From Saccharomonospora sp. CUA-673 (GTDB taxonomy: Bacteria > Actinomycetota > Actinomycetes > Mycobacteriales > Pseudonocardiaceae): a stretch of 64,000 nucleotides of DNA. Both the position numbers and the translations under genes were made by a program. This document shows, piece by piece, positions 8,724 to 41,194 of this stretch. Location: the NCBI RefSeq assembly GCF_001942305.1, contig NZ_MKKE01000002.1, forward strand, positions 62,001 through 126,000, read 5' to 3'. The number at the start of each line of letters is the position of its first letter. Position 1 is the first letter of the stretch. A model generated the notes under the pieces. It was not told where the DNA came from, ran no database searches, and worked only from the letters and a program-made list of their open reading frames with translations.

Positions 8724-11003
8724 TCAGCGCAGCGAGCGGCGGGCCGTCTGGGCACCCTCCACCATGGCGCGCAACGCCTCCTCGGTCTCGGCGTAGCCGC
8801 GGGTCTTGAGCCCGCAGTCGGGATTGACCCACAGCCTGCCGACGGGCACCGACTCCATCGCCTCGGCCAGCAACCGCGCGATCTCGGCAGCACCGGGCAC
8901 CCGGGGCGAGTGGATGTCGTACACGCCGGGTCCGACGCCGCGGGCGAAACCGACCGCGGCGAGATCGTCGAGGACCTCCATGTGCGATCGTGCCGCCTCG
9001 ATGCTCGTCACGTCGGCCTCGAGGGCCACGATCGCGTCGAGCACGTCGCCGAACTCGGCGTAGCACAGATGCGTGTGGATCTGCGTCACGTCGGCGACAC
9101 CGGAGGTCGCGAGACGGAACGATTCGACGGCCCAGCACAGGTAGTCGCGGCGATCGCGTCGGCGCAGCGGCAACAGTTCCCGCAGCGCGGGCTCGTCGAC
9201 CTGGATCACGCCGATCCCGGCCCGTTCCAGGTCCCGCACCTCGTCCCGCAGCGCCAGCGCCACCTGGGCCGCGGTGTCCGCAGCGGACTGGTCGTTGCGC
9301 ACGAACGACCACGCCAGCATCGTCACCGGTCCGGTGAGCATGCCCTTCACGGGCTTGTCGGTGAGGCTCTGCCCGTAGCGGGCCCACTCCACCGTGAACG
9401 GCGCCGGTCGCGACACGTCGCCGAACAGGATCGGCGGCCGGACGCACCTCGAACCGTAGGACTGCACCCAGCCGTGCTCGGTCGTGGCGAACCCGTCGAG
9501 GTGCTCGGCGACGTACTGCACCATGTCGCCGCGCTCGGGTTCGCCGTGCACCAGCACGTCGAGCCCGACGTCCTCCTGGAGCCGGACGATGTCGCGGATC
9601 TCCTCGCGCATCCGCTCGCGATACTGCTCGGTGGACACGTCGCCCCGTCGCCACGCGGCCCGGGTCTTGCGCAGGTCGGCCGTCTGCGGGAACGACCCGA
9701 CGGTCGTGGTCGGCAACGGCGGCAGCCGCAGCGCGTTGTCCTGCAGCCGGCGCCGTGTCTCGTAGTCGGGCCTGCGGATGTGCGCCGGCCGCACCATCTC
9801 CAGCCGTGCCCGCACCCGGTGGTTGTACGTCCTGCCGGTGACCGCGCGCGCGGCGCGCGAGGCCTCGAACGCGGCACCGACACTCGCCCGCCCGTTCGTC
9901 AGCGCGCGGCCCAGCGTGACGACCTCGCGCACCTTCTGCACCGCGAACGCCAGATGCGGCCGCACCTCCGGATCGAGCGACGGCTCGGCCTCGACGTCGT
10001 AGGGCACGTGCAGCAGCGAGCACGAGGTGCTCACGGCCACGTCCCGTGCCGACTCGCGCAGTGTCGTGACGGTGGTCAACGCGGCGTCCAGGTTGGTGCG
10101 CCACACGTTCCGTCCGTCGATCACGCCGGCCACGAGCGTCTTGTCCGCCAGCCCCGGCTGCTCCGCCACCCTGTCCACCGTGGACGGGCTGGACACCAGG
10201 TCGACCGCGAGGCCCTCGACGGGTGCCGCGGCGAGCACGTCGATCGCTCCGTCCAGGTCGCCGAAGTACCCGGCGACCAGAATGGACGGTCGGTTGCCGA
10301 GCTCACCCAGTGCGGCGTACGCGGTGCGCACCGCGTCCAGTTCGGACTCGGTGCGGTCGGCGGCCAACGCCGGTTCGTCGAACTGCACCCAGTCCGCGCC
10401 CGCGGCGTGCAGTTCCCGCAGCAGGCGCCGGTACGCAGGCAGCACGTCGGCCAACCGGTCCAGGGGGCGGAAGTCCTCCGGGGCGCCTGCAGCGGGTTTG
10501 GCCAGCAGCAGGAACGTGACGGGCCCGAGCAGCACCGGACGCGTCGGCACCCCGAGCGTGCTCGCCTCGAGGTAGTCGGTCACCGGCGTGTGATCGGCCA
10601 GGGTGAACTCGGTGTCGGGGCCGATCTCGGGCACGAGGTAGTGGTAGTTGGTGTCGAACCACTTCGTCAGCTCGAGCGGCGCGGTGCGCCCCGCTCCCCT
10701 GGCCATGGCGAAGTAGGTGTCCAACGGGCCGAGACCGAGCGCCCGGAAACGCGCGGGCACCGCACCGAGCATCGTCGCGGTGTCGAGGACGTGGTCGTAG
10801 TACGAGAACGTGTTGCCCGGGACCGAATCCAGTCCCGCGGCCGACAGTTCGCGCCACGTGCGGGCGCACAGTTCCCGGGCCACGGCGCGGAGTTCGGACT
10901 CCCCGGACGCCGCGGCCCAGTACTTCTCGAGGGCGCGTTTCAGTTCGCGGCGCGGGCCGATGCGGGGATATCCCAGAATGGTGGAACCGATGCTGCTGGT
11001 CAT
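8724..11003 (-). CDS. metE: Cobalamin-independent methionine synthase MetE
   Basis: A 759-residue 5-methyltetrahydropteroyltriglutamate-homocysteine methyltransferase, which makes methionine without B12. It has the N-terminal [21 protein letters not shown] and the C-terminal zinc site HTHLC (His645, Cys647) and NPDCG (Cys730), matching the E. coli His641/Cys643/Cys726 set. ATG 11003 is preceded by GAGGAGAG. It is downstream of a cobalamin riboswitch on the same strand, the classic arrangement that turns metE off when B12 is available. A short upstream ORF ends on the metE start codon. Length and motifs are normal. Confidence 0.98.
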
Positions 11004-11107
11004 GCTCTCTCCTCGCGAGCTCTGGCGACACAGTCGCCGAGTACCTCGAGGGAGCTGCGCAGACGCGGACCGGCCGCATCCGTTGTCCGGGATGCGGTGA
11101 CCGGCAC
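11000..11107 (-). CDS. Possible 35-residue leader ORF upstream of metE
   Basis: A GTG-started frame of 35 codons lies between the cobalamin riboswitch and metE, with its TGA overlapping the metE ATG as ATGA. The nearest Shine-Dalgarno-like GGGAGG is 12 bases away, rather far. Translational coupling with the riboswitch is possible, but the frame could be open by chance in this GC-rich DNA. The peptide has no recognisable domain. Confidence 0.25.
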
Positions 11108-11149
11108 CGTCCGTCAGGTCCTCCCGCGAGACCTCGGACTCGCGCACAC

Positions 11150-11400
11150 CGGGCGGTGCACGCACCGGTGGCAGGTCTTCGGACTCGCGGGCGGTTCCGG
11201 CGCCGGGCCGGTCGTCCTACTGGCCGTCGCTTCCCGGACCGATGCCTGGTCCAGTGCTGTTGACGGCGTTCGTTCCCACTTACCGCTGCGGGGCAGTCCC
11301 GGATTCACACCGGGTTCCCTCTTGCCTCGCCGCCCGCACGCGCCCCGCCGTCGGGCGGATGCGTGGTGCGGACTGGCGAACCACCAGCGCCGTCCACGGT
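11150..11400 (-). promoter_or_regulatory. Cobalamin riboswitch upstream of metE
   Basis: Read on the minus strand, the conserved core around 11320-11281 contains the G-rich start, CCGGTGTGAATCCGG, then a GACTGCCCCGCAGCGGTAA segment. A B12-box-like AGTCCGAAGACCTGCC lies at about 11185-11170. Order and spacing match the cobalamin riboswitch class. It stands 150-400 bases ahead of metE on the same strand, so B12 binding should repress metE. A stem CCGCATCC/GGATGCGG (11074-11097) downstream may take part in the switch. Outer boundaries are approximate. Confidence 0.92.
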
Positions 11401-28293: not shown

Positions 28294-28641
28294 ATGTCCG
28301 ATGAGGTGTGCTCGACGTCGCTGGCGGGCGAGCCGTTGTCGCCGCCGCAGGCGACCGAGTTGTCCCGTGCGTTCAAGGCACTGTCCGATCCGGTGCGCCT
28401 GCGCCTGTTGTCGCTGATCGCCTCGCATACCGGCGGCGAGGCGTGCGTGTGCGATCTGACCGGCGCGTTCGACCTCACCGGACCCACCATCTCCCATCAC
28501 CTCAAGGTCCTCCGCGAGACCGGCCTGATCGTCGGCGAACGCCGTGGGACGTGGATCTACTACCGCGTCGATCCGGCCGTGCTGGATCGACTGTCGAGCG
28601 TCCTGGCACCGGCCGACACCGGAACGGATGTCCCCGCGTGA
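28294..28641 (+). CDS. arsR: ArsR-family arsenite-responsive repressor
   Basis: A 115-residue winged-helix repressor. FKALSDPVRLRLLSLI leads to the ACVCDL metal motif (Cys51, Cys53) at the start of the recognition region and TGPTISHHLKVLRETGL (62-78). Cys6 near the N terminus could be a third thiol ligand. ATG 28294 lies just after an 18-base palindromic operator, so it should repress its own operon until As(III) or Sb(III) binds. The stop overlaps the next start as GTGA. Confidence 0.95.
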   Translation: MSDEVCSTSLAGEPLSPPQATELSRAFKALSDPVRLRLLSLIASHTGGEACVCDLTGAFDLTGPTISHHLKVLRETGLIVGERRGTWIYYRVDPAVLDRLSSVLAPADTGTDVPA

Positions 28642-29732
28642 GCACCGAGACGCATGCGCCGGCCGAGTCCGGTGTGGCCGGCCGACTGTCGACGTTGGAC
28701 CGTTTCCTTCCACTGTGGATCGCGCTGGCCATGATCGCCGGGCTCCTGGCCGGGCGATCGGTGCCGGGCCTGGACAGCATGCTCAAGGCGATCGAGGTCG
28801 GCGGCATCTCGGTGCCGATCGCGCTGGGCCTGCTGGTGATGATGTACCCGGTACTGGCGAAGGTCCGCTACGACCGGCTCGACACCGTCACCCGCGACCA
28901 CCGGCTGCTGTGGTCGTCGCTGGCGCTGAACTGGATCCTCGGACCGGCGCTGATGTTCGCACTGGCGTGGCTGCTGCTGCCGGACCTGCCGGAGTACCGG
29001 ACCGGGCTGATCATCGTCGGGCTCGCCCGCTGCATCGCCATGGTGATCATCTGGAACGACCTCGCGTGCGGCGACCGCGAGGCGGCGGCCGTGCTGGTCG
29101 CCCTCAACTCGGCGTTCCAGGTCGTCGCGTTCGGCGCGCTCGGCTGGTTCTACCTCGCCCTGCTGCCCGGCTGGCTGGGTCTGCCCACGGCCGATCTCGA
29201 CGTCTCGGCCTGGCAACTGGTCGTCAACGTGGTGATCTTCCTGGGCATCCCGTTGCTCGCGGGCTACGTGACGCGCCGCATCGGCGAACGCACCAAGGGA
29301 CGCGGCTGGTACGAATCCCGGTTCCTGCCGCGGATCGGGCCGTTCGCCCTGTACGGCCTGCTGTTCACCATCGTCCTGCTGTTCGCACTGCAGGGTGAGC
29401 AGATCACCGGCCGCCCGCTCGACGTGGTGCGCATCGCGCTGCCGCTGCTGATCTACTTCGCCGTGATGTGGGCGGGCTCGTACGCGCTCGGACGCGCCGT
29501 CGGCCTCAACTACGAACGCACGACCACGCTCGCGTTCACCGCCGCGGGCAACAACTTCGAACTCGCCATCGCCGTCGCCATCGCCACGTTCGGCGCGACC
29601 AGCGGGCAGGCGCTCGCCGGCGTCGTCGGGCCCCTGATCGAGGTGCCCGTCCTCGTCGGACTCGTGTACGTCTCGCTCGCACTGAGGCGCCGCTTGTTCA
29701 CACAGCCCGGTCCCACAACCACCGGAGGGTGA
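28638..29732 (+). CDS. acr3: ACR3-family arsenite efflux permease
   Basis: A 364-residue ten-helix transporter that exports As(III) driven by proton motive force. Key motifs of ACR3 are present: GLARCIAMVIIWNDLACGD with the essential Cys132 in TM4, and FTAAGNNFELAIAVAIA with the conserved Glu in TM9. GTG 28638 overlaps the arsR stop. It is followed at 2 bases by the arsenate reductase, giving a complete arsR-acr3-arsC detoxification operon. Confidence 0.96.
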   Translation: MSTETHAPAESGVAGRLSTLDRFLPLWIALAMIAGLLAGRSVPGLDSMLKAIEVGGISVPIALGLLVMMYPVLAKVRYDRLDTVTRDHRLLWSSLALNWILGPALMFALAWLLLPDLPEYRTGLIIVGLARCIAMVIIWNDLACGDREAAAVLVALNSAFQVVAFGALGWFYLALLPGWLGLPTADLDVSAWQLVVNVVIFLGIPLLAGYVTRRIGERTKGRGWYESRFLPRIGPFALYGLLFTIVLLFALQGEQITGRPLDVVRIALPLLIYFAVMWAGSYALGRAVGLNYERTTTLAFTAAGNNFELAIAVAIATFGATSGQALAGVVGPLIEVPVLVGLVYVSLALRRRLFTQPGPTTTGG

Positions 29733-29734
29733 CC

Positions 29735-30160
29735 ATGTCCGACACCTCAGCCGCCCCGTCCCAGCCGCCGCGCCCGTCGGTGTTGTTCGTGTGCGTGCAC
29801 AACGCGGGGCGCTCGCAGATGGCGGCCGCGCTGCTCGAACATCACGGCGGCGGCCGCGTCGAGGTCCGCTCGGCGGGCTCGGCGCCGGCGGACTCGATCA
29901 ACCCCGCGGTCGTCGAGGTCATGGGCGAACTGGACATCGACCTCCACGCCGCGGTGCCGAAGGTGCTGACGACGGAGGCGGTCGAGGCCTCGGACGTCGT
30001 GGTCACGATGGGCTGCGGCGACGCGTGCCCCGTGTTCCCCGGCAAGCGGTACCTGGACTGGCAGCTCGAGGACCCGGCCGGTCGGGGCGTCGACGCCGTC
30101 CGCCGCATCCGCGACGACATCGACCTCCGCGTCCGCACCCTCCTGTCCGAACTGCCCTAA
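29735..30160 (+). CDS. arsC: Arsenate reductase, low-MW phosphatase fold
   Basis: A 141-residue protein with the PTP loop VCVHNAGRSQMAAALL (Cys20, Arg26), GSAP, a resolving-cysteine pair region GCGDACPVFPG (Cys94, Cys98) and the DWQLEDP acid loop. It reduces As(V) to As(III) for export by ACR3. The spacing of the two distal cysteines is shorter than in thioredoxin-coupled S. aureus ArsC, so it may be a mycothiol- or mycoredoxin-dependent type common in actinobacteria; that is inference. ATG 29735 is preceded by GGAGGG. Confidence 0.93.
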   Translation: MSDTSAAPSQPPRPSVLFVCVHNAGRSQMAAALLEHHGGGRVEVRSAGSAPADSINPAVVEVMGELDIDLHAAVPKVLTTEAVEASDVVVTMGCGDACPVFPGKRYLDWQLEDPAGRGVDAVRRIRDDIDLRVRTLLSELP

Positions 30161-30222
30161 CCCCCGTCGCCGTGTCAGCACCCCCCGTCGCCGTGTCAGC
30201 AATCCACGTCGCCGTGTTGGCG
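30161..30222. repeat. Three tandem copies of a ~20-bp GC-rich unit
   Basis: A unit close to CCCCCGTCGCCGTGTCAGCA occurs at 30161-30180, again at 30181-30201 with one extra C, and in degenerate form at 30202-30222. It lies between convergent arsC and the ABC gene; the third copy encodes the end of the ABC protein. It is followed by a TGGCGT/ACGCCA hairpin inside the coding region. Confidence 0.7.
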
Positions 30223-31800
30223 TTTCGGGGACGCCACGGCGTCGTGCAGTGACCGGGTGGCGATGACCAGCTCCTTGCCGGCACGCGAGCACGGGGCGGA
30301 TTCGAGCACGCCCGGACCGGCCGTCTCCACGATGCGGCCGGCGTCGACGACGTGCAGCTCGTCGGCCGGCCGGGACACCGCGGCCAGGTCGTGGCTGATC
30401 AGCACCACCGCCATGCCGAACGTCCCACGCGCATGGGCGAGCGTGCGCAACACCTCGGCCCGGTTGACCGTGTCCAACGCGGAAGTGACCTCGTCGCAGA
30501 TCAGCACCCGCGGACGGGCCAGCAGCGCACGCACCAACGCCGCACGTTGCAACTGGCCGCCGGACAACTCGTCGGGCCGTCGCCGCGCCTGCTCGGCGTC
30601 GACGCCCCAGGCGGCCAACAGTTCCGCCGCCTCCGCCCGTGCCTCCCGGACCGGGACGCCGCGGAGCAGCTCGGCGGTCCGGGCGATCTGCGTCGTCACC
30701 GCACGGCCCGGGTCGAAACTCGCCTGCGCGTCCTGGGGTACGTACTGCACGTGCCGTCGTTGCGCCCGCGTACGCCGCCGGGCGCTCGGCGACACCGGCT
30801 CCCCGTCGAGGCGCAGCACGCCGCTGGTGAACGGAGTCAGGCCGGCGAGACCGCGGGCCAGGGTCGTCTTCCCCGCGCCCGAGCGGCCGACGATGGCCAC
30901 CCACCCTCCCTCGTGGACTGTCAGGTGCGCCCCGCCCAGCAGCACGGCGCCGTCGCGTGCGCGGTGACCGACGCCCTCGGCGACCAACACCGGCGGCCCC
31001 GGCCGGGACTGCGGCGCCCGACCGGCCGTGGCCGACTCGGCCGCCACCAGCGTGCGCCCCTGCTCGGAAGCGGGCGCTCCGAGCACCGACGCCGATGTGC
31101 CGCGCTCGACGACGCGGCCGTCGTGCAGCACCAGCACCGTCCCGGCCAGCCGCCGCGCCAGTGCGAGGTCGTGGGTCAACAGCACCAGCGCCGTGCCGGC
31201 CGCAACCACATCGGACAGCAGATCGGCGATCTCGGACCGGGTGACGGTGTCCGCGCCGGTCGTCGGCTCGTCGAGGACGATCACCTCCGGCCGGGTGATC
31301 AGCGCCTGCGCCAGCACGACGCGTTGTTGCTGGCCGCCGGAGAGTTGGTGCGGGAAGCGCCGGAGCACCGCCGGATCCAAACCGACCGCGGCTACCACGC
31401 TGCGCACCGCCGCCTCGCGCCCGGCCCGGCCGGGACCGCGCGACCCCGACTCCCGCAACGCGGCCGCCTCGCGCAGGGCGCCACCGATCCGCCGCATCGG
31501 GTTCAACGCCTCGCCCGGATGTTGCGGCACCAGCGCGATCCTGCCCGCCCGCGCCGTCCGCCGCGTCTTCTCCGAACGGCCCAGCAGGTCCACTCCGGAC
31601 AGTGTCACGCTGCCCGACAGGGCGATGCCCGGACGGGACTCCCCCAGCAGCGCCTGCGCGAGTGTCGTCTTGCCGCTGCCCGACCGGCCCACGACGGCCA
31701 CCACGGTGCCCGGCTCGACGTCGACGTCCACCGCGTCCACGAGGACCCGCTCGTCCGCGCGCGCGTGCACGCCGCGCGCCCGCACAACCCGCCCGCTCAC
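30196..31800 (-). CDS. ABC importer ATPase, two fused domains (DppD-DppF/NikD-NikE type)
   Basis: A 534-residue double ATPase. Domain 1 has Walker A GRSGSGKTTLA (about 39-49), a GVDLL linker, signature LSGGQQQRVVLAQAL and Walker B VIVLDEPTTGAD. Domain 2 has Walker A GRSGAGKTTLARG, signature LSGGQLQRAALVRALLA and Walker B VLICDEVTSALD, where Glu is retained. The pair corresponds to the separate D and F subunits of peptide/nickel importers joined in one chain. GTG 31800 overlaps the permease stop as GTGA. It is the last gene of the B12-riboswitch operon. Nickel, cobalt complex or peptide could be the cargo; operon context favours a cobalt chelate. Confidence 0.93.
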   Translation of the reverse strand: MSGRVVRARGVHARADERVLVDAVDVDVEPGTVVAVVGRSGSGKTTLAQALLGESRPGIALSGSVTLSGVDLLGRSEKTRRTARAGRIALVPQHPGEALNPMRRIGGALREAAALRESGSRGPGRAGREAAVRSVVAAVGLDPAVLRRFPHQLSGGQQQRVVLAQALITRPEVIVLDEPTTGADTVTRSEIADLLSDVVAAGTALVLLTHDLALARRLAGTVLVLHDGRVVERGTSASVLGAPASEQGRTLVAAESATAGRAPQSRPGPPVLVAEGVGHRARDGAVLLGGAHLTVHEGGWVAIVGRSGAGKTTLARGLAGLTPFTSGVLRLDGEPVSPSARRRTRAQRRHVQYVPQDAQASFDPGRAVTTQIARTAELLRGVPVREARAEAAELLAAWGVDAEQARRRPDELSGGQLQRAALVRALLARPRVLICDEVTSALDTVNRAEVLRTLAHARGTFGMAVVLISHDLAAVSRPADELHVVDAGRIVETAGPGVLESAPCSRAGKELVIATRSLHDAVASPKRQHGDVDC

Positions 31801-32615
31801 CGCCCGGCCGCCGATCGTGCCGCCCGGCTCCACCGCATCGACCGCGCCGCTCCGGTCCTCCTGGTGGCCCGGTCCACGACCAGGTTGGCCGCGACGCACA
31901 GCACCACCAGCAGGCCCGCGGGGACGAGGGCGGTCCACGGTTGCAGGAACAGCGCCTCCCGGTTGCGTTCGACGAGCACCGCCCAGTCGACCGCCGACGA
32001 GCCCAGTCCGAGCCCGAGGAAGTTCGCCGACGCGATCAGCTGCAGCACCACGATCAGCCTGCTGCCCGCGTCCACGGCCACCGGACCGGCGACGGCTCGT
32101 CCGGTGTGCCACAGGTGGATGCGCCACCACGGTTCACCCTGCAGCACCATCGTCTCCACCGCCGCGCGGCACGCCGGTGCCAACGCGGCGCTGCGGGCCA
32201 GTCGCACGATCGCCGGCAGCTGCAGCGCGGCCACCGCCGCGACCAGGCCGAACGCGTCCTGCCGTCCGGTGGCCGCCAGCACCAGCAGCACGAGCAGACC
32301 CGGCAGCGCCAGCAGCAGGTCGAGACCGTGCAGCAGCGTCTCGTCGACCCACCGGCGCGACTGGCCGACCATCGTCAGCGCCAAGGGGACGCCGACGAGG
32401 TACGCCAGCGCCAGCGACGCGCCCGCCAGCAGCACCACCGTCTGCCCGCCGGACAGGGCCAACGCGAGCACGTCCCGGCCGAGCACGTCCGTGCCGAGGG
32501 GGTGCCCGGACCCGGGCGGCAGCAACGGCGCGGCCTGTGACTGCGTCGGCCCCGCCAACAGCGGACCCAGGACCGCCACCAGCAGTCCGGCGCCGAGCAT
32601 CGCCCACCCGATCAC
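31797..32615 (-). CDS. ABC importer permease (DppC/NikC-like)
   Basis: A 272-residue inner-membrane permease with about six helices. HPLGTDVLGRDVLALALSG near residue 38 is a hallmark of the DppC/NikC/OppC subunit, and the cytoplasmic EAA-like loop is around RLARSAALAPACRAAVETMVLQGEPWWR, somewhat diverged. GTG 32615 overlaps the upstream permease stop, and its own stop overlaps the ATPase start. Partner of the DppB-like permease. Confidence 0.92.
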   Translation of the reverse strand: MIGWAMLGAGLLVAVLGPLLAGPTQSQAAPLLPPGSGHPLGTDVLGRDVLALALSGGQTVVLLAGASLALAYLVGVPLALTMVGQSRRWVDETLLHGLDLLLALPGLLVLLVLAATGRQDAFGLVAAVAALQLPAIVRLARSAALAPACRAAVETMVLQGEPWWRIHLWHTGRAVAGPVAVDAGSRLIVVLQLIASANFLGLGLGSSAVDWAVLVERNREALFLQPWTALVPAGLLVVLCVAANLVVDRATRRTGAARSMRWSRAARSAAGR

Positions 32616-33562
32616 GTGACCACGTCCCGCTGCGGAACGAGCCGCCGCGCCGCGACATCCGCGAGGACGTTGACCACGACCGTGGTGACGACGAACAGGA
32701 TCGCGTAGCCCTGCACCACCGGCAGGTCGCGCGCCCGCACCGCCTCCACGAACCCGGCGCCGACGCCGGGCAGACCGAACATCGCCTCCACCACGAGCAC
32801 ACCGCCGAGGAGACCGTCCACCGTGCGCGCCAGCTGCTGCACGGCCGGGGCGATGCCGTTCGGCACCACGGTGCGCAGCAGCACGGCGCGTTCGGAGACG
32901 CCGAGCAGCCGCAGGTGCGTCGCGTAGGGCGCGTCACGCGCGTCGGCCACCCCGATCCGGATCTGCCGCGCCAGCGCGCACAGGTGCTTCGCCACGAGCA
33001 CCGCGACGGGCAGCACAAGTACCGCAGGCTGGTCGACCAGCGACCCTCCCGGCAGTCCGGCAGCCGTGGCAGGAAACCACCCCAGCTGCAGCGCGAACAC
33101 GGCGGCCAGCACCATGCCGAGCGCGAACTCCGGAATCGCGCCGAGCGCCACGACCAGCGCGTTCAGCGCCCGGTCGACCCGCGAGCCGGGCCGCGTTCCG
33201 CCGAGGACTCCGACCAGCAGGGCCACCGGCAGCACACACGCCAGCGTCACCGCGGCCAGCACCAGCGTGCCGGCCACCTCCGAACCCAGGTCCTCGGTCA
33301 CCGGTCGCCCGGTCAACCACGACGTGCCGAGGTCGCCGCGGACAATCCCCGCGAGCCATTCGACGAACCGCTCACCCCACGGCCGATCCAGCCCCAGCTC
33401 GGCACGCAGAGCCGCGACCTGCTCGTCCGTGGCGTGCTCCCCGGCCGCGATCACGGCCGTGTCGCCGGGCAGCAGGGACGTCAGCACGTAGACGCCCGTG
33501 ACGACGACCGCGATCTGCACCAGCCCGGCGCCGAGCCGCCGCACGGGGTAGGGCGCGCTCAC
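32612..33562 (-). CDS. ABC importer permease (DppB/NikB-like)
   Basis: A 316-residue permease of the DppB/NikB type. The family features are LGLDRPWGERFVEWLAGIVRGDLGTSW after TM1, four to five further helices, and a loop with IRIGVADARDAPYATHLRLLGVSERAVLLRTVVPNG, the EAA motif that contacts the ATPase. GTG 33562 overlaps the inferred stop of the substrate-binding protein gene as GTGA, consistent with the other junctions of the operon. Confidence 0.93.
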   Translation of the reverse strand: MSAPYPVRRLGAGLVQIAVVVTGVYVLTSLLPGDTAVIAAGEHATDEQVAALRAELGLDRPWGERFVEWLAGIVRGDLGTSWLTGRPVTEDLGSEVAGTLVLAAVTLACVLPVALLVGVLGGTRPGSRVDRALNALVVALGAIPEFALGMVLAAVFALQLGWFPATAAGLPGGSLVDQPAVLVLPVAVLVAKHLCALARQIRIGVADARDAPYATHLRLLGVSERAVLLRTVVPNGIAPAVQQLARTVDGLLGGVLVVEAMFGLPGVGAGFVEAVRARDLPVVQGYAILFVVTTVVVNVLADVAARRLVPQRDVVT

Positions 33563-35102
33563 CCCACGACGCGCCGTCGAACCGCGCCCAGTCCTGCGAG
33601 TTCGGCGTCGCCGCGCGCAATCCGTCGACGCCCGGGGCGACGGCGACGTTCCAGTGGCTGAATCCCCACACGACGAGCCCGCTGTCGACGTGGGCGACGT
33701 GCTGGGCCCGGGCGAGCAGGCGCGCCCGGTCGCCGTCGTCGGCGGTGGCGATCGCCCGGGAGAACAGGCCGTCGAACTCGGCCGAGTCGAAGTGGGTGTA
33801 GTTGCCGCTCTCGCTGCCGGAGGTCATCCGCTGCCCGAGGAACACCGGCACCGGCAGCGCGGCCGTCCGGGTGTGCGCGGCCACGCCCCGCTCCTCGATC
33901 TCGTCGAAGTAGGTCTCCGACGGCCGGGCCTGCGGGGTGACCGTCAGCCCGATCTCGGCCAACTGTTCGGCGATCAGCGTCGCCGCCCGCTCGAAGTACG
34001 GGTCGGTGTCGCTGGTCAGCAGTGTGATCTCCGAGCGCCCTGCACCGGCCTCGCGCACGAGTTCTCGGGCGCGGTCGACGTCCCGGGTGCGCTGCGGCAG
34101 ATCATCGGCGTAGTGCTCGAGATCCTTGCCGAACAGGTCGTTGCCGACCTCGCCCTTGCCACTGAGCGCGACCTCCACGAGCGCTTCCCGGTCGATACCG
34201 AGCTGCACCGCCTCGCGCAGACGCGGATCGTCGAACGGGGCACGGTCGACCTTGAGCGCCACCGCCTGCATCGTGCTGTGGGGCGCGGACAGCACCCGCG
34301 CGCGCTCGTCGCCCTCGAGCCTGCGCGCGGCGTTGGCGCCGACGTCGTGCGCGTAGTGCACCTGCCCGGACAGCAGCGCCGACACCCGGGCAGACTCGTC
34401 GTTGATGGGCACGAATTCCAGCTCCGCAGGTGCCGCCGGGCCGGACCAGTGGTCGTCGAACCTCGTGAACACCGCACTGCCGCCGGGTTCGAACGACGAG
34501 AACCGGAACGGCCCGGACCCGACCGGGTTCCGGAAGCCCGTCGTGCCCGCCGGGACGATCTCGGTGCCCGGTGCGCCCCACGCCGCCGGGAACTCGAAGT
34601 TCGGCGCCTGCAGGACGAGTTCGAGTTCGCGTTCGGAGTGGGCGCGGCTCGCCGCGAAGTCCACCGGGGTGAAGTGCGTCTGCGCGGACGCGCCGGCCCC
34701 GGGGTCGGCGATCCGCCGGTAGCTGTACAGGACGTCCTCGGCCGTCACGGGGCTTCCGTCGTGGAACCGGGCCCCGCGCAGCGTGATCCGCCAGCGCCGG
34801 CCGGCATCTCCGGACTCCCACGACTCGGCCAGCCGCGGGACGATGCTCATGTCGTCGTCGTACGCCACGAGGGTGTCGAACAGGGCCTTGGCCCTGGCCT
34901 GGTCGACGAACAGCGGCGTCACGTGCGGATCGAGCGACTCCCGTCCACCCGCCGTCGCGAAGGCGACGCGGAACCGCTCGCTTCCCGCACCGCCCGCGGC
35001 GCATCCCGGGAGGACGGTCACGGCGGCGGCACCCGCAGCGGCGGCGAGGAAACGCCGCCGGGTCCATCGTGGACGGACCCGGTCACCGGCGGCTCGGCTC
35101 AT
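33559..35102 (-). CDS. Family 5 extracellular solute-binding lipoprotein, frameshifted at the C terminus
   Basis: A substrate-binding protein of about 514 residues for the adjacent ABC importer. ATG 35102 follows AAGGAGGG. The N terminus has a twin-arginine stretch RRRFLAAAAG (15-24) and the lipobox LPGC with Cys34, so it is a Tat-exported lipoprotein. The SBP_bac_5 body shows LAESWESGDAGRRWRITLRGARFHDGSPVTAEDVLYSYRR split over residues 90-130. The frame fails to stop at ARFDGASWG; one G missing from a run of four near 33563-33566 would give a TGA overlapping the permease GTG. Without that base the frame runs on meaninglessly to 33372. CntA, NikA and peptide-binding proteins belong to the same family. 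Confidence 0.88.
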
Positions 35103-36449
35103 GTCCACCCTCCTTGTCCCCGGCACCTTCGCCGGTGTCAGCGGTGTCGTCGGTGTCAGCGGTGTCAGCAGCCTTGTCGTCGGCGTCCTCGGATGCGGCG
35201 CTCTCGGAGGACCGGCGGAGCAGGCCGCGGCGTTCCATGGCCCCCGCACCCGCGGCTCCGGCGAGTCCGACGACGCACAGCGCCAACACGGGAGCCACCG
35301 CAGTTCCGCCACCCCGGCGAGGTCGAGCAGGGTTCCGGCGAGCCAGCTCACGCCGGCGGCCGCGACGCTCGAGACGAGGTAGTAGAACCCGTAGTAGGTG
35401 CCGGCCAGCCGTTCGCTGCCGACGACGGGAAGCAGCTCCATCGCGAACGGATTGGTGATGGCCTGGCCGACGGTGAACAGCACCGTCGTCGCCAGCACCG
35501 GGATCATCACCAGTGCCACCGTCACGCCGAGGTCCTCACCGGTGCGGGTGACCAGGAACGGCGAGGCGACCAGCAGCGGCACGAACGACAGGCCCATGCA
35601 CGCCAGGCCGACGACGACCGAGCGGCCGGAGGTCCACCGCGCGCGGCACCATTCGGTGATCCGCACCTGACCGGCCACGCCGATCACCGTGGACACGACG
35701 AACACCAGCGTGATCGCCCACGACAGCCCGGACACCCGCTGCGCCTCGAGCGGGATCATCAGGTACAGCTGGTTGTACAGGCCGAAGTAGGCCGACAGCG
35801 ACACCGTGAACGCGAGGAACCGCCGGTTGGTCACGACCTCGCGCCAACTGCCGAGCACGCCCGTCTGTTGCGGTTCGACCTCGCGGTGCGGCAGGACGAG
35901 GATCTGCGCCACCGTGAGGACGGCGAACGCGACGCACGCGACCCACGCCACGGCGCGGAAGTCGATCGTCAGCAGCAGCGCGCCGAGCAGCGGCCCGACC
36001 AGCGTGCCGGCGTGGGCGAAGACGTTGAACACCGAGAACGCCTCGGCGCGCCGCTCCCCGGCCTCGTGCATGAGGTAGGTCCGCACGGCAGGGTTGAAGA
36101 ACGCCCCCGCGAGCCCGGTGAGCACCACGGCGGCGATCAGCCCCGGCAGCGACGTCAGCAGGGCGAACAGGCCGAACGCCAGCACCCGCAGACCGCAGCC
36201 GAGGATGATCATCGGCCGGCAGCCGATCCGATCCGCGGCGGTGCCGCCGACGAGGAACATGCCCTGCTGGCTGAGGTTCCGCAGCCCGAGCACGAGGCCG
36301 ACGATCGCGGCCCCGTATCCGAGTTCGGTGCTCATGTACGAGGCCAGGAACGGCAGCAGCATGTAGAAGCCGATGTTGATGCCGAACTGGTTGAGCACCA
36401 GCAGCCGCGCCGGTGTGGACAGCTGTCGGAATGCGCTTCGGGTCGTCAC
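35083..36449 (-). CDS. MFS transporter, frameshifted near the C terminus
   Basis: A twelve-helix major facilitator of about 455 residues. TM1 is ARLLVLNQFGINIGFYMLLPFL, followed by the A-motif-like GGTAADRIGCRPMI loop. GTG 36449 has GAGGAGG upstream and overlaps the preceding stop. After LDLAGVAELRWLP the protein continues one base out of phase as VLALCVVGLAGAAGAGA, with an acidic Asp/Glu/Thr-rich cytoplasmic tail ending at 35083; one base is missing near 35291. Lying between biosynthesis-like genes and an importer, it is a candidate exporter of the product, comparable to CntE in staphylopine systems; this is inference. Confidence 0.87.
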
Positions 36450-37588
36450 GAGAGCTCCTCCTCGCGGGTCGCATCGGGGCGCGGCGCTCGCCGCTCGCAC
36501 GGATCGGGCACGTCGACGCAGCGCGCCCATCGGTGCCCGACCGAATCGGCGACACTGTCCACTGTGTCCGGTTCGTCGGCGACGGCCGTCAGTCCGTGGC
36601 GTAGGCAGAAGCCGTCGTCGAAGACCGATTCCCAGTAGCGGCTCGGTCCGTCGGGGAACACGGCGGCCACGCGGTCGGAGCCGAGCTCGCGTGCGCACCA
36701 CGCCGCGACCATCGCGGCGGCTCCGGTGCTCCAGCCGCCGCTGACGAACGTGCCGGCCGCCAGCCGCCGGCACGCGTCGACCGTCTCCCCCGGGCCGACC
36801 CAGTGGACCTCGTCGAACTGGTCGTAGGCCACGTTGTCGGGATGGATGCTGCTGCCCAGTCCGCGCATCACGCGCCGCCGGGCCGGCTGGCCGAAGACGC
36901 TCGAGCCCGGGGCGTCGACGCCGATCAGGCGGACGTCGGGCCAGGTGCGGCGCACCACCGACGCGATGCCCGCACTGTGCCCGCCGGTGCCGACACTGCA
37001 CACGAGGGCGTCGAGGTGCTCGAGCTGCTGGGCCAGTTCGAGGCCCATCTGGTGATACCCCGTGGGGTTGTCCGGGTTGTTGTACTGGTCGGGCCAATAC
37101 GCGCCGGGGATCTCGTCCAGGATCTGCTCGACCCGATCGAGGCGCGCCTGCTGCCAGCCCCCGGTCGGGTGTGGACGGTCGACGATCTCCAGGCGCGTCC
37201 CGTAGGCGTGCAGCAGGCGCCGGGTCATGTCGTCGAGTTCGTCGTCGGCGACGATGACGACGGGGTGCCCGAGGGCGCGCCCGACGAACGACAGTCCGAT
37301 GGCGAGCGTGCCGCTGCTCGATTCGACGACGGTGCCGCCGTCGTCGAGGTCACCGCGCCGGCGGGCGCCCTGCAGCATCGCCAGCGCCGCGCGGGCCTTC
37401 ATCGTGGCAGGGCCGACTCCTTCCAATTTGGCCCAGAATCCCGGATGGTGCCGGGGCAAGGGCGTACTCACGCGCAGCACCGGGGTGTTGCCGATGAGGT
37501 CGAGCAGCGATACGCACCGGCGTCCGCCCGGAGTGTCCACCGTGGTCGTCCGCGTCTCGCCGGGACCGGTGTGCTGGAACGGAATCAC
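36446..37588 (-). CDS. PLP-dependent cysteine-synthase-like enzyme
   Basis: A 380-residue fold type II PLP enzyme. SLLDLIGNTPVLRV opens the domain; the PLP lysine is in KLEGVGPATMKARAALAML (Lys64), replacing the usual NPxGSxKDR. The substrate loop is ESSSGTLAIGLSF and the phosphate-binding glycine loop is CSVGTGGHSAGI. A C-terminal extension of about 50 residues ends in a charged tail. Such enzymes do beta-replacement on O-acetyl- or O-phosphoserine; relatives include CysK, CBS and SbnA, which makes a siderophore precursor. Changed residues around the lysine suggest a specialised role rather than cysteine synthesis. It overlaps its neighbours on both sides by 4 bases, inside the B12-controlled operon. 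Confidence 0.85.
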   Translation of the reverse strand: MIPFQHTGPGETRTTTVDTPGGRRCVSLLDLIGNTPVLRVSTPLPRHHPGFWAKLEGVGPATMKARAALAMLQGARRRGDLDDGGTVVESSSGTLAIGLSFVGRALGHPVVIVADDELDDMTRRLLHAYGTRLEIVDRPHPTGGWQQARLDRVEQILDEIPGAYWPDQYNNPDNPTGYHQMGLELAQQLEHLDALVCSVGTGGHSAGIASVVRRTWPDVRLIGVDAPGSSVFGQPARRRVMRGLGSSIHPDNVAYDQFDEVHWVGPGETVDACRRLAAGTFVSGGWSTGAAAMVAAWCARELGSDRVAAVFPDGPSRYWESVFDDGFCLRHGLTAVADEPDTVDSVADSVGHRWARCVDVPDPCERRAPRPDATREEELS

Positions 37589-38475
37589 GCGGAGCCACCC
37601 CCTTCGCCGGCGCCGTGGCCTTCGCCGTACACGTGGACGTCCGTGGCGTCACCGCTGAGCCAGAAGAACGGGTACGGCTCGGCCGACAACGCGGCGATCT
37701 CACCGGCACCGCCGGTCCCGTCTCCCAGGAGCTCCCGGAGCACCGCGGCGCCGGTCTGGGCGAACATCACCAGTGGGATGCCGCGCTCGCGGCAGCGGTG
37801 GGAGATGTCGTCGAACGTGCCGTTGCCGAGGGTCATCCCCGAGGCGAGCACCGCGTCCGCACCCTCGATCGCCGCGCGGTGGTCGTCGGTGATCGGTTCG
37901 TCCCATTCGGTGCGTCCGCCGCCGAGGTCGCAGGCGACGTAGTCGAGGCCGCGTTCCCGTAGCGCGGACAGCAGCGAGTTGACGACGCCGATGACGGCGA
38001 CCGTGCCGCCGGCGGGCAGGGGCACGAGGTCGGCGACGACGCGGGCGCGCGCCATCGATTTCTCCAGGGAGGTCCCGGACGGGATCCGCACCGTCCGGGA
38101 GTCGAGGGGATGCGGCCTGCGGGCCGCGAGGTAGGCGTCGAGGGCGGCGATGCGCACCGCGCGGGCAGGGTGTGCCAGCAGCGACGCGACGTCCGAGCCG
38201 ACGATCTCGCGCACGACAGCACTGTCCACAGCGGAACTGTCCACTTCGTCCGGCTCGACGGCGCACGACCCGACGCAGGGTCCCACGCGCACGCTCAGGA
38301 CGGTGTTGACGTATCCGCTGCTGCGGCCGGTGTGCCGGGCGGCTTGGACGGTCAGGAACGCCACGGATGCCGTGGCCTCGGTCAGGGCAGGGTTGTCATC
38401 CGGGAGCAGGCCGGCGACGACGCGTTCGAGCGCACCGTCGGCCGATCTCCCCGGATCGGGGAAGTTCTGGGACAC
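37585..38475 (-). CDS. DUF4213/DUF364 protein, putative metal-chelate-handling enzyme
   Basis: About 296 residues. The first half (to about 120) fits the DUF4213 enolase-N-like domain; the second half fits the DUF364 Rossmann-like domain with VAVIGVVNSLLSALRERG, CDLGG, GADAVLASGMTLGNGTFDDI and LVMFAQTGA. The family is described as putative heavy-metal chelation and has no established reaction. GTG 38475 has GGAGAG upstream; GTG 38487 is an alternative without a ribosome site. It is the first full gene of the riboswitch operon and overlaps the PLP enzyme by 4 bases. A role in handling cobalt or in making a chelator with the PLP enzyme is inferred. Confidence 0.8.
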   Translation of the reverse strand: MSQNFPDPGRSADGALERVVAGLLPDDNPALTEATASVAFLTVQAARHTGRSSGYVNTVLSVRVGPCVGSCAVEPDEVDSSAVDSAVVREIVGSDVASLLAHPARAVRIAALDAYLAARRPHPLDSRTVRIPSGTSLEKSMARARVVADLVPLPAGGTVAVIGVVNSLLSALRERGLDYVACDLGGGRTEWDEPITDDHRAAIEGADAVLASGMTLGNGTFDDISHRCRERGIPLVMFAQTGAAVLRELLGDGTGGAGEIAALSAEPYPFFWLSGDATDVHVYGEGHGAGEGGGSA

Positions 38476-38520
38476 ACGACTCTCCACATCGCACGGACAG
38501 GAACGGGTAGGGGAACCGCC

Positions 38521-38598
38521 CTATGCGATGTGGGTGACGTGGATACAGTGGGTGAATTGGGCCGGGAATGCCGGCACGGACGGCAGCATGACGCGCAC
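38521..38598 (-). CDS. 25-residue His/Cys-containing leader ORF
   Basis: A short ORF from GTG 38598 to TAG 38521, with a near-ideal GGAGGAGG five bases upstream. The predicted peptide ends THCIHVTHIA, so it carries three His and one Cys in its last nine residues, a metal-binding look. It sits between the cobalamin riboswitch and the DUF364 gene, 45 bases upstream of the preferred DUF364 start (33 before the alternative). The strong ribosome site could be what the riboswitch gates, with coupling to the operon. I do not recognise the peptide. Confidence 0.5.
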   Translation of the reverse strand: MRVMLPSVPAFPAQFTHCIHVTHIA

Positions 38599-38639
38599 CG
38601 TGACCTCCTCCGGGGCTCCGCGACCCCGTACGATTCGGT

Positions 38640-38815
38640 GCGACGGTGGGAGTCTCCTGACTCGTGCCTCGGCATCGTCCCCGGCCTTCCCACCGGACAT
38701 TCCGGCAGTGGCCTTCGTCGGGGACGACTCCGCACTCACAGTGGCGGGACCGTGCCGGATTCGCACCGGCTTCCTCGTCACCATCGCGTGGACCGCGTAT
38801 CAACATCCCAGTGTC
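38640..38815 (-). promoter_or_regulatory. Cobalamin riboswitch upstream of the DUF364-ABC operon
   Basis: On the minus strand: GAGGAAGCCGGTGCGAATCCGG, split by the usual loop (about 38782-38756), CGGTCCCGCCACTGTGAGT (about 38755-38735), GCCACTGCC (about 38712), GGGAAGGC, then the B12 box GAGTCAGGAGACTCCC at about 38663-38648. These are the consensus elements of the cobalamin class in the right order. The downstream genes are transporter and metal-linked genes, not B12 synthesis, which suggests control of cobalt or corrinoid uptake. The start of the RNA is approximate. Confidence 0.95.
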
Positions 38816-39576: not shown

Positions 39577-40998
39577 TCACGCGCCGGCGCGGCTGGGCGC
39601 GACGAAGTCGATCTTCTCCCGCACGCCGCAGTCGGGGCAGCACCACGAGTCCGGGATCGCCGACCACGGGGTGCCTGCGGGGAAGCCCTCGCGGGGGTCG
39701 CCGGTGGCCTCCTCGTAGACGTAGCCGCATCCCGGGCACATTCCGCCGTCGGTGGCGTCGCCGCGCGGCTCGTCCGGACCCGCCAGGGGTTGCGTTCCGG
39801 AGGCCGCGGAGCCGCCGTACCGCGCCAGTACTTTCGCCCGTTTCCGGGGTTCGATGTTGGCGCGGGTGATGTCGCCGCCGAAATGGGCGAGCACGCGCGG
39901 ATCCATCACGCGGCGCCACAGCGGCGGAACCAGCGCGAGGACCATCATGCCGGCGTAGCCGGTCGGCAGGACCGGAGATTCGGGGAAGTCGCGCAGGGTC
40001 TGGTACCGCCGCACCGGGTTGGCGTGGTGGTCGCTGTGCCGCTGCAGGTGGTACAGCAGCACGTTCGTCGCGATGTTGTTCGAGTTCCAGCTGTGGCTGG
40101 GATCGACCCGTTCGTAGCGCCGCCGCTCCGGCGTCCCCCGCAGCTGCCGCAGCATGCCGTAGTGCTCCATGTAGTTGACGATCTCCAGCAGCGACAGCCC
40201 CACCAGGGCCTGAATCAGCAGGTACGGCAGGACCCCGATGCCGAGCCACGCGATCATCGCCGACCAGAGCACCGCCGACATCAGCCACGCGTTGAGCACG
40301 TCGTTGCCGATACGGAACGGATGCCGGTCCCGCCGGGCGTAGCGCTTACGCTCCAGTCGCCACGCCGACCGCAGCGAGCCCGCGACCGTCCGCGGCCAGA
40401 ATCGGTAGAAGCTCTCCCCCACCCGGCTGCTGGCGGGATCCTCCGGGGTCGCCACACGCACGTGATGACCGCGGTTGTGCTCGATGTAGAAGTGTCCGTA
40501 GAAGCTCTGCGCGAGCGCGATCTTCGACAGCCAGCGTTCGTGACTTTCCTTCTTGTGGCCCAGCTCGTGAGCCGTGTTGATGCCGATGCCGCCGACACAG
40601 CCGACCGTGACGGCGAGCCCGACCTTGTCCACGACCGACAGGTCGCCGCGCGCGATCAGCCACAGCGCCACGACGAATCCCGCGTACTGGATGGGCAGGT
40701 ACGCGTAGGTGATCCAGCGGTAGTACCGGTCGCGTTCGAGCTCGTCGATCATGTCGTCGGGCGGGTTGCTGCGGTCCAGGCCCGCCACCAGGTCCAGCAG
40801 CGGCACGACGACGAGGATCACGATCGGGCCGATCCAGAACCACACGCCCCAGCCGGTGGCGGCGTGCAGGCCGAGGCCGGCGAACACCAGGGACGGCACG
40901 ACCAGGCCGATCAGCCACAGGTATCGCTTGTGGTCGGTCCACTCCTCGACGCGCTCCCCGGCGGCTCCCGCCACCGGCGCGCTCCGTCCGTCGCTCAT
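39577..40998 (-). CDS. alkB: Alkane 1-monooxygenase fused to rubredoxin
   Basis: A 473-residue membrane di-iron hydroxylase. The histidine boxes are HELGHK (144-149), EHNRGHH (173-179) and HSDHH (321-325), with NYMEHYG (275-281). After a linker of about 40 residues the C terminus is a complete rubredoxin: CPGCGY (Cys421, Cys424) and CCPDCG (Cys454, Cys457). The fusion supplies the electron carrier in cis, as known for Prauserella rugosa AlkB. It oxidises medium- or long-chain n-alkanes to 1-alkanols. ATG 40998 has GAGGAGG upstream. No rubredoxin reductase gene is adjacent. Confidence 0.97.
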   Translation of the reverse strand: MSDGRSAPVAGAAGERVEEWTDHKRYLWLIGLVVPSLVFAGLGLHAATGWGVWFWIGPIVILVVVPLLDLVAGLDRSNPPDDMIDELERDRYYRWITYAYLPIQYAGFVVALWLIARGDLSVVDKVGLAVTVGCVGGIGINTAHELGHKKESHERWLSKIALAQSFYGHFYIEHNRGHHVRVATPEDPASSRVGESFYRFWPRTVAGSLRSAWRLERKRYARRDRHPFRIGNDVLNAWLMSAVLWSAMIAWLGIGVLPYLLIQALVGLSLLEIVNYMEHYGMLRQLRGTPERRRYERVDPSHSWNSNNIATNVLLYHLQRHSDHHANPVRRYQTLRDFPESPVLPTGYAGMMVLALVPPLWRRVMDPRVLAHFGGDITRANIEPRKRAKVLARYGGSAASGTQPLAGPDEPRGDATDGGMCPGCGYVYEEATGDPREGFPAGTPWSAIPDSWCCPDCGVREKIDFVAPSRAGA

Positions 40999-41194
40999 CG
41001 TCGGCCTCCTCATCGAGGTGGACATCCAGAGCCATAATGTAAACCGCTGTGGACTCGTGTGGCAATCATGTCCAACGCCCGCGGGCGCTAGGGCTGGCGA
41101 CTGTCGATGATCCGGACACCCGCGACCCCGCGGCGCGCCCTAGGTTCACCGAGGTCACCAGGCACCGCTCGACGACGAGAAAGGTGGGCAGACC

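Follow-up and report, generated by a model that had tools for sequence, protein, structure and literature searches.

A cobalamin-riboswitch-led operon in Saccharomonospora and its relatives: a candidate B12-controlled cobaltophore system

We analyzed a 64,000-nucleotide stretch of the draft genome of Saccharomonospora sp. CUA-673 (contig NZ_MKKE01000002.1, positions 62,001 to 126,000; hereafter the window), in which seven minus-strand genes stand behind a cobalamin riboswitch (Table 1). They encode, in order, a DUF364 protein, a pyridoxal-phosphate (PLP) enzyme, a major facilitator superfamily (MFS) carrier, a family 5 solute-binding protein (SBP), DppB- and DppC-like permeases, and a fused double ATPase. 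An earlier reading made without database searches (the sequence-only reading) had described a clear cobalamin riboswitch ahead of this gene set and proposed a B12-controlled cobalt metallophore system, drawing on what is known of staphylopine-type systems. Its description of the locus holds: Pfam families were found in all seven proteins, and the riboswitch belongs to RF00174, its 93.5 bits standing against a gathering score of 31.5 with model positions 1–189 of 189 aligned. It is the best cobalamin riboswitch match of the whole Saccharomonospora genome (Rfam).

Table 1. Features of the operon, its leader, and the second riboswitch locus (positions within the window)
Feature	Position	Strand	Evidence and remarks
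Cobalamin riboswitch aptamer RF00174	38630..38820	-	Rfam 93.5 bits, full length
Expression-platform block with a short G+C hairpin that continues into GGAGGAGG	38604..38628	-	25 bases, just 3' of aptamer
Short leader open reading frame (uORF), 25 codons	38521..38598	-	GTG start, GGAGG upstream
DUF364 protein	37585..38475 (start possibly 38487)	-	Pfam PF04016 31.3 bits, cut-off 23
SbnA-like PLP enzyme, fold type II, cysteine-synthase family	36446..37588	-	PALP 180 bits
MFS carrier	35083..36449	-	MFS_1 129.7 bits; MdtH model 146 bits, below cut-off
Family 5 solute-binding protein	33559..35102 (assembled frame to 33372)	-	SBP_bac_5 252.2 bits
DppB/NikB-like permease	32612..33562	-	BPD_transp_1 87.7 bits; Opp2B 208 bits, cut-off 350
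DppC/NikC-like permease	31797..32615	-	BPD_transp_1 43 bits; Opp2C 109 bits, cut-off 300
Fused double ATPase, NikD/NikE-like, 534 aa	30196..31800	-	ABC_tran twice; NikE 322.5 bits, cut-off 332.6
Second cobalamin riboswitch	11173..11320	-	76.9 bits; leads metE
metE, B12-independent methionine synthase	8727..11216	-	Behind second riboswitch

How widely is this arrangement shared, and does the riboswitch go with it? Relatives were gathered in two sets that overlap in shared genomes. For the first (named) set, genome contigs were scanned for the PLP enzyme; among the best 80 of 259 confirmed relatives, nine loci (L007–L014 and L017) were of the window's kind, which we call type A, and 71 were of a second kind, the longer type B cluster. 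The family set came from an even draw of 200 family genomes, of which 88 contained a relative of the PLP enzyme with E no higher than 1e-90. Of the 109 matches listed (the window's own excluded), 80 were fetched, with the 29 weakest left out; they comprised 20 type A, 32 type B, and 28 type C loci. DUF364, PLP enzyme, and MFS carrier occur together in 20/20 family type A loci, and the importer is adjacent in 12 of them, as it is in six of the nine named ones (not in L011, L014, and L017). Type B consists of an ATP-grasp ligase, DUF364, PLP enzyme, an enolase-superfamily enzyme, MFS carrier, a methyltransferase (68/71 loci of the named set), SBP, DppBC, and ATPase; type C of the PLP enzyme and MFS carrier, without DUF364 or an adjacent importer. 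In a PLP-enzyme tree read as unrooted, a supported branch separates each type from the other two (support 100/100 for A, 100/100 for C, and 98/88 for B); its rows were 19 fetched type A sequences, the window, 32 type B, and 28 type C, L138 (55 amino acids extracted) having been dropped.

The riboswitch is a constant companion of type A. Rfam found it in 9/9 type A loci of the named set and in 20/20 of the family set, where it stands just before DUF364, 983–1157 bases upstream of the PLP gene. It was found in none of the seven type B loci tested in the named set and, by direct Rfam scans, in none of ten type B loci (two of them also among those seven) and none of ten type C loci. The family search covered 67 genomes with matches listed down to E 1.5e-20, and absences were taken from the direct scans.

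The leader is conserved in layout. Behind the aptamer come the 25-base platform block, the uORF with a strong Shine-Dalgarno sequence, and DUF364, whose start is probably 38475 and not 38487; 45 bases separate the end of the uORF from this probable start. The block is letter-identical to the window's in 18/20 fetched type A loci and differs by one base in the other two (L144 and L145), and its pattern has no match at the five other cobalamin riboswitches of the window's genome. An ATG- or GTG-start ORF occupies the place of the uORF in 16 of the 19 type A leaders viewed (near-duplicates L140 and L146 left out), with a sequence that varies. In Mycobacterium tuberculosis, the ppe2 B12 riboswitch is described as masking the start of a uORF on whose translation the next gene depends (PMC11260477). 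The window shares with that account a B12 riboswitch ahead of a uORF and a predicted masking of its start, and differs from it in the genes that follow and in the 45 bases between uORF and DUF364. Because of this likeness in layout, control of the operon at the level of translation is likely.

Do the importer genes belong to the same system when they lie elsewhere? In the eight type A genomes without an adjacent importer, the closest SBP (64–67% identical) is encoded elsewhere in the genome, and in 8/8 another cobalamin riboswitch precedes it by 72–349 bases. DppB and DppC come next, joined by the ATPase in 2/8. These riboswitches carry the same platform block (5/8 exact, 3/8 one letter shorter), and six of the eight have a four-base overlap between the uORF stop and a GTG, a stop/start arrangement that is also part of the ppe2 description (PMC11260477). 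The six loci without an ATPase gene beside DppC are L210, L211, and L214–L217; their ATPase must be encoded elsewhere or shared. Synthesis, carrier, and importer genes therefore share riboswitch control across genomes. If a metallophore system is recognized by synthesis, carrier, and importer under one metal-related control, that pattern is present in the 20/20 type A loci together with the 8/8 detached importers. The B12-controlled metallophore of the sequence-only reading is borne out to this extent, and comparison gives it firmer support than one sequence alone could; membership of the staphylopine kind is not borne out.

One alternative is that the importer brings in cobalt on common chelators such as amino acids and peptides, while DUF364, PLP enzyme, and MFS carrier do something else and share only the control. 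Detachment of the importer in 8/20 type A loci is what such independence might produce, yet the detached importer and the DUF364–PLP–MFS genes both keep a riboswitch with the same platform, and in type B these genes are likewise paired, there behind a Zur-type box; we consider this explanation unlikely.

The control of type B was assessed with the Streptomyces Zur motif tGaNNatSatNNtCa, as given in PMC5472717. At up to one mismatch, a Zur-type box occurs in 39/69 named type B leaders, vs. 3/1380 shuffles and 1/345 random windows. At up to two mismatches, it occurs in 29/32 family type B loci (27 of these boxes lie 51–69 bases before the ATP-grasp gene), in 0/20 type A, and in 0/28 type C; random windows had one in 30/400, a figure that may include true boxes. 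A Nur-type pattern upstream of type B was found in 0/69 leaders in its strict form and in 5/69 in its loose form. Since Zur-type boxes stand in its leaders, type B is probably zinc-controlled, and with such a sister cluster the kin of the operon look like metal systems. Type B loci (L015–L086 except L017; L149–L156, L158–L179, L197, and L201) are found in many Streptomyces and relatives, and we know of no description of this cluster.

Might type A itself be a nickel or zinc metallophore that came under B12 control and is not specific for cobalt? Its importer scores best with nickel models, although all NikABCDE cut-offs of NCBIfam are missed (SBP 123.8 bits against 600, DppB-like permease 208 against 350, DppC-like permease 109 against 300, ATPase 322.5 against 332.6), and the Zur-type boxes of type B point the same way. 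None of the 20 type A leaders has such a box, however, whereas all 20 have the riboswitch, and types A and B co-occur in nine sampled genomes, which suggests different tasks for the two. We think a nickel or zinc role improbable.

Two further kinds of relative were seen. Type D (L226–L229, four genomes viewed; L226 belongs to the window's genus) pairs a DUF364 protein of 43–45% identity with a distant PLP enzyme in 4/4; by eye, FecBCD-type importer genes and an MFS gene are each present in 3/4 and a methyltransferase in 2/4. A Zur-type box with one mismatch stands in promoter position in 2/4, and the four loci have no riboswitch. Of 394 class genomes, 30 had a match to DUF364 with E no higher than 1e-40, besides the window none more than 60% identical; the two viewed at 52–58% identity were both type B, and no type A locus was seen beyond the family, although unviewed matches at 55–60% could still be type A. 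Type C comprises the 28 loci L180–L209 except L197 and L201 (e.g., L190:4506-6041 and L182:4387-6029). In L190, L182, and L203, a small ORF ending C(V/I)SRT precedes the PLP gene, and M48/M56-like and redox genes are among the neighbors; those of L182 and L190 include genes for penicillinase-repressor family, M48/M56-like peptidase, NlpC/P60, and DsbA-like proteins. L203 resembles L190 by eye, and L195 differs. Amycolatopsis makes the zincophore ethylenediaminedisuccinate (EDDS), a zinc-linked aminopolycarboxylate of an actinomycete; type C was considered as an EDDS cluster, an idea left unsupported by the loci viewed.

What might the two enzymes make? The sequence-only reading had called the PLP enzyme cysteine-synthase-like, and the family assignment stands, but the protein is closer to SbnA, scoring 247.4 bits with the SbnA model TIGR03945 vs. 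160 bits with cysteine synthase. A plain cysteine synthase was rejected on this ground and because the gene accompanies DUF364 in types A and B. SbnA itself is also not matched, as the equivalog cut-off of TIGR03945 (349.95 bits) is missed. SbnA structures (5d84/5d87) are among the solved structures closest to the enzyme, and in an alignment to them the SGN of SbnA is replaced by SGT[LM] in 78/80 PLP rows. SbnA is described as joining O-phosphoserine to Glu, and aspergillomarasmine A synthase as joining it to Asp, with products that chelate metal (PMC12751119). By analogy, the operon product is perhaps an aminopolycarboxylate of the SbnA/aspergillomarasmine type, which is a guess. The DUF364 protein reaches membership of PF04016. 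A sequence search of the Protein Data Bank (PDB) gave no match at E 5, so a fold search was used: the AlphaFold model (mean predicted local distance difference test [pLDDT] 86.8) best matches 3l5o (E 1e-7) and 3npg. For this fold, a condensation or hydrolysis in chelator synthesis has been proposed, and for the DUF364 structure Dhaf4260 a role in chelator synthesis was proposed from its cleft and gene context (PMC2954201).

The window's genome also has a riboswitch-led B12-biosynthesis locus, with CobB and CbiE/CbiT above cut-offs and CobU-, CobS-, and chelatase-like proteins below cut-off or recognized by Pfam. The other riboswitch loci of this genome, on contigs C18, C15, C25, and C22 (L087–L090), are three with BtuF/FecB-type binding proteins and the B12-biosynthesis locus; the C22 riboswitch match is just below the gathering score. 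Of the two cobalt carriers searched, CbiM and NicO, neither has a match in this genome (92% complete). CbiM or a clear NicO (E <1e-20) is present in 8/21 type A genomes vs. 136/179 others (Fisher p 0.0006, uncorrected for kinship), and CbiM by itself in 6/21 vs. 101/179 (p 0.02); both are missing in 13/21 vs. 43/179, and the eight genomes with a detached importer have neither. The notion that the operon replaces CbiM/NicO was dropped, because 8/21 type A genomes have one of them. That the operon is instead a B12-independent pathway standing in for a B12-dependent one, like metE for metH, with PLP enzyme and DUF364 making a metabolite otherwise supplied by a B12 enzyme and the transporters moving it, seems very doubtful: the window's other cobalamin riboswitch does lead metE, the classical substitute, yet the operon has both an MFS carrier and an ABC (ATP-binding cassette) importer, and in its sister clusters Zur-type boxes are present instead of riboswitches.

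We think it fairly probable, reading from sequence, that type A is a B12-controlled cobaltophore system in which a cobalt chelator is secreted and re-imported. When cobalamin is scarce, the riboswitch, to judge from its aptamer and platform, would leave the uORF and the operon open to translation. The SbnA-like PLP enzyme, as its family suggests, would couple an activated serine with an amino acid, through the latter's amino group, to give a small aminopolycarboxylate, which DUF364, by its linkage, may modify or condense. Family assignments suggest that the MFS carrier exports the chelator and that SBP, DppBC-like permeases, and fused ATPase take the metal complex back. We infer cobalt as the metal from the B12 control, the B12-biosynthesis genes, and the missing CbiM and NicO. 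The fuller proposition, that this is a dedicated cobaltophore, made, exported, and re-imported by one system that B12 controls directly, with a Zur-linked (zinc) DUF364/SbnA-like family as its sister and DUF364 as a new kind of chelator-building enzyme, we hold to be about evenly balanced.

Several observations weigh against a cobaltophore. The SBP model (pLDDT 85.1) matches the PDB structures of AgaA, NikA, NikZ, and Dpp/Opp proteins, a fold compatible with peptide, opine, and nickel binders alike, which leaves the ligand undecided. NCBIfam cut-offs are reached by none of the PLP enzyme, MFS carrier, SBP, permeases, and ATPase. The platform hairpin stretch is no more stable than shuffled sequences (folding z +1.09). 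NicO alone is no different between type A genomes (8/21) and others (73/179; p 1.0), CbiM or NicO is present in eight of the 21 as well, and the comparison extends to these two carriers only. The eight detached importers come from two genera only and so represent few independent detachment events. In the window itself, the MFS and SBP genes of this draft assembly are out of frame at their 3' ends. Type C shows that DUF364 and importer do not always accompany the PLP and MFS genes. The sequence-only reading had named relatives without a riboswitch beside non-metal pathways as evidence that would count against it; types B and D do not show this, but type C (riboswitch in 0/10 scanned, no DUF364, no adjacent importer) is unexplained and speaks against a simple story.

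The broken frames bear on a further claim of that reading, that nearly all genes are joined by 4-base GTGA overlaps. Four joints are of this kind (DUF364/PLP, PLP/MFS, DppB/DppC, and DppC/ATPase). At MFS/SBP, where the letters are ATGA, and at SBP/DppB (GTGA), the overlap letters are present, but the assembled frames do not end there: the MFS frame leaves its homolog near 35290 and continues on, and the SBP frame, which has an RR signal and lipobox (by eye), enters DppB by ~190 bases. In the Prauserella rugosa NRRL B-2295 locus L007, whose PLP enzyme is 84% identical to the window's, both genes end normally. A CysK-like gene elsewhere in the same 85-contig genome as the operon (contig C7) is also in two pieces, and the breaks reflect either draft error or decay. 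Beside the operon, at 28308-30160 (+), lie genes for an SBF-family transporter and a protein of the low-molecular-weight phosphatase family, resembling by eye Acr3 and arsenate reductase, respectively, a pair that adjoins the operon in P. rugosa L007 too. Upstream of the riboswitch, at 39577-41025 (-), a gene that looks AlkB-like by eye encodes a fusion of rubredoxin with a membrane protein of the fatty-acid desaturase family.

It is an open question how bacteria that make B12 acquire the scarce cobalt. If the cobaltophore interpretation is true, a cobalt-scavenging system is available with its genes in hand, the P. rugosa L007 copy being intact. Type B hints at a family of Zur-linked chelators that is common among the Streptomyces loci viewed, and types A and B together place DUF364, a protein known by its structures, in a pathway where its reaction can be sought. 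A literature search that covered few subscription journals found no paper that links cobalamin control to a metallophore or cobaltophore and no riboswitch-led chelator pathway, which is weak evidence of novelty.

How does the operon compare with known systems? Staphylopine and other opine metallophores (Cnt) combine small-molecule synthesis genes, an MFS exporter, and an Opp/Nik-type importer in one operon. The operon likewise joins synthesis genes, MFS carrier, and Opp/Nik-type importer, and differs in having PLP enzyme and DUF364 and a B12 riboswitch. Membership of the staphylopine type was rejected, as Pfam finds no nicotianamine-synthase-like, opine-dehydrogenase, or racemase family in the seven operon proteins, the only proteins in which CntL/CntM-like enzymes were sought. 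NikABCDE importers lie behind B12 riboswitches in Clostridium tetani and Desulfitobacterium hafniense (PMC2667541), and the operon resembles them in its Nik-type ABC importer under such control; unlike the operon, they come with no chelator synthesis or exporter in the available text of that paper. With SbnA, of staphyloferrin B synthesis, and aspergillomarasmine A synthase, the operon shares a PLP enzyme of the cysteine-synthase family; from SbnA it is set apart by the missed TIGR03945 cut-off, by SGT[LM] in place of SGN, and by a Pfam scan that found no SbnB-like partner in the operon. The window's DUF364 has the same Pfam family and fold match as Dhaf4260, which, unlike the operon's protein, is given no pathway or partner enzyme in the available text of PMC2954201. 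Outside both the staphylopine type and SbnA by membership, the operon, judged by its genes and their control, works like a metallophore system.

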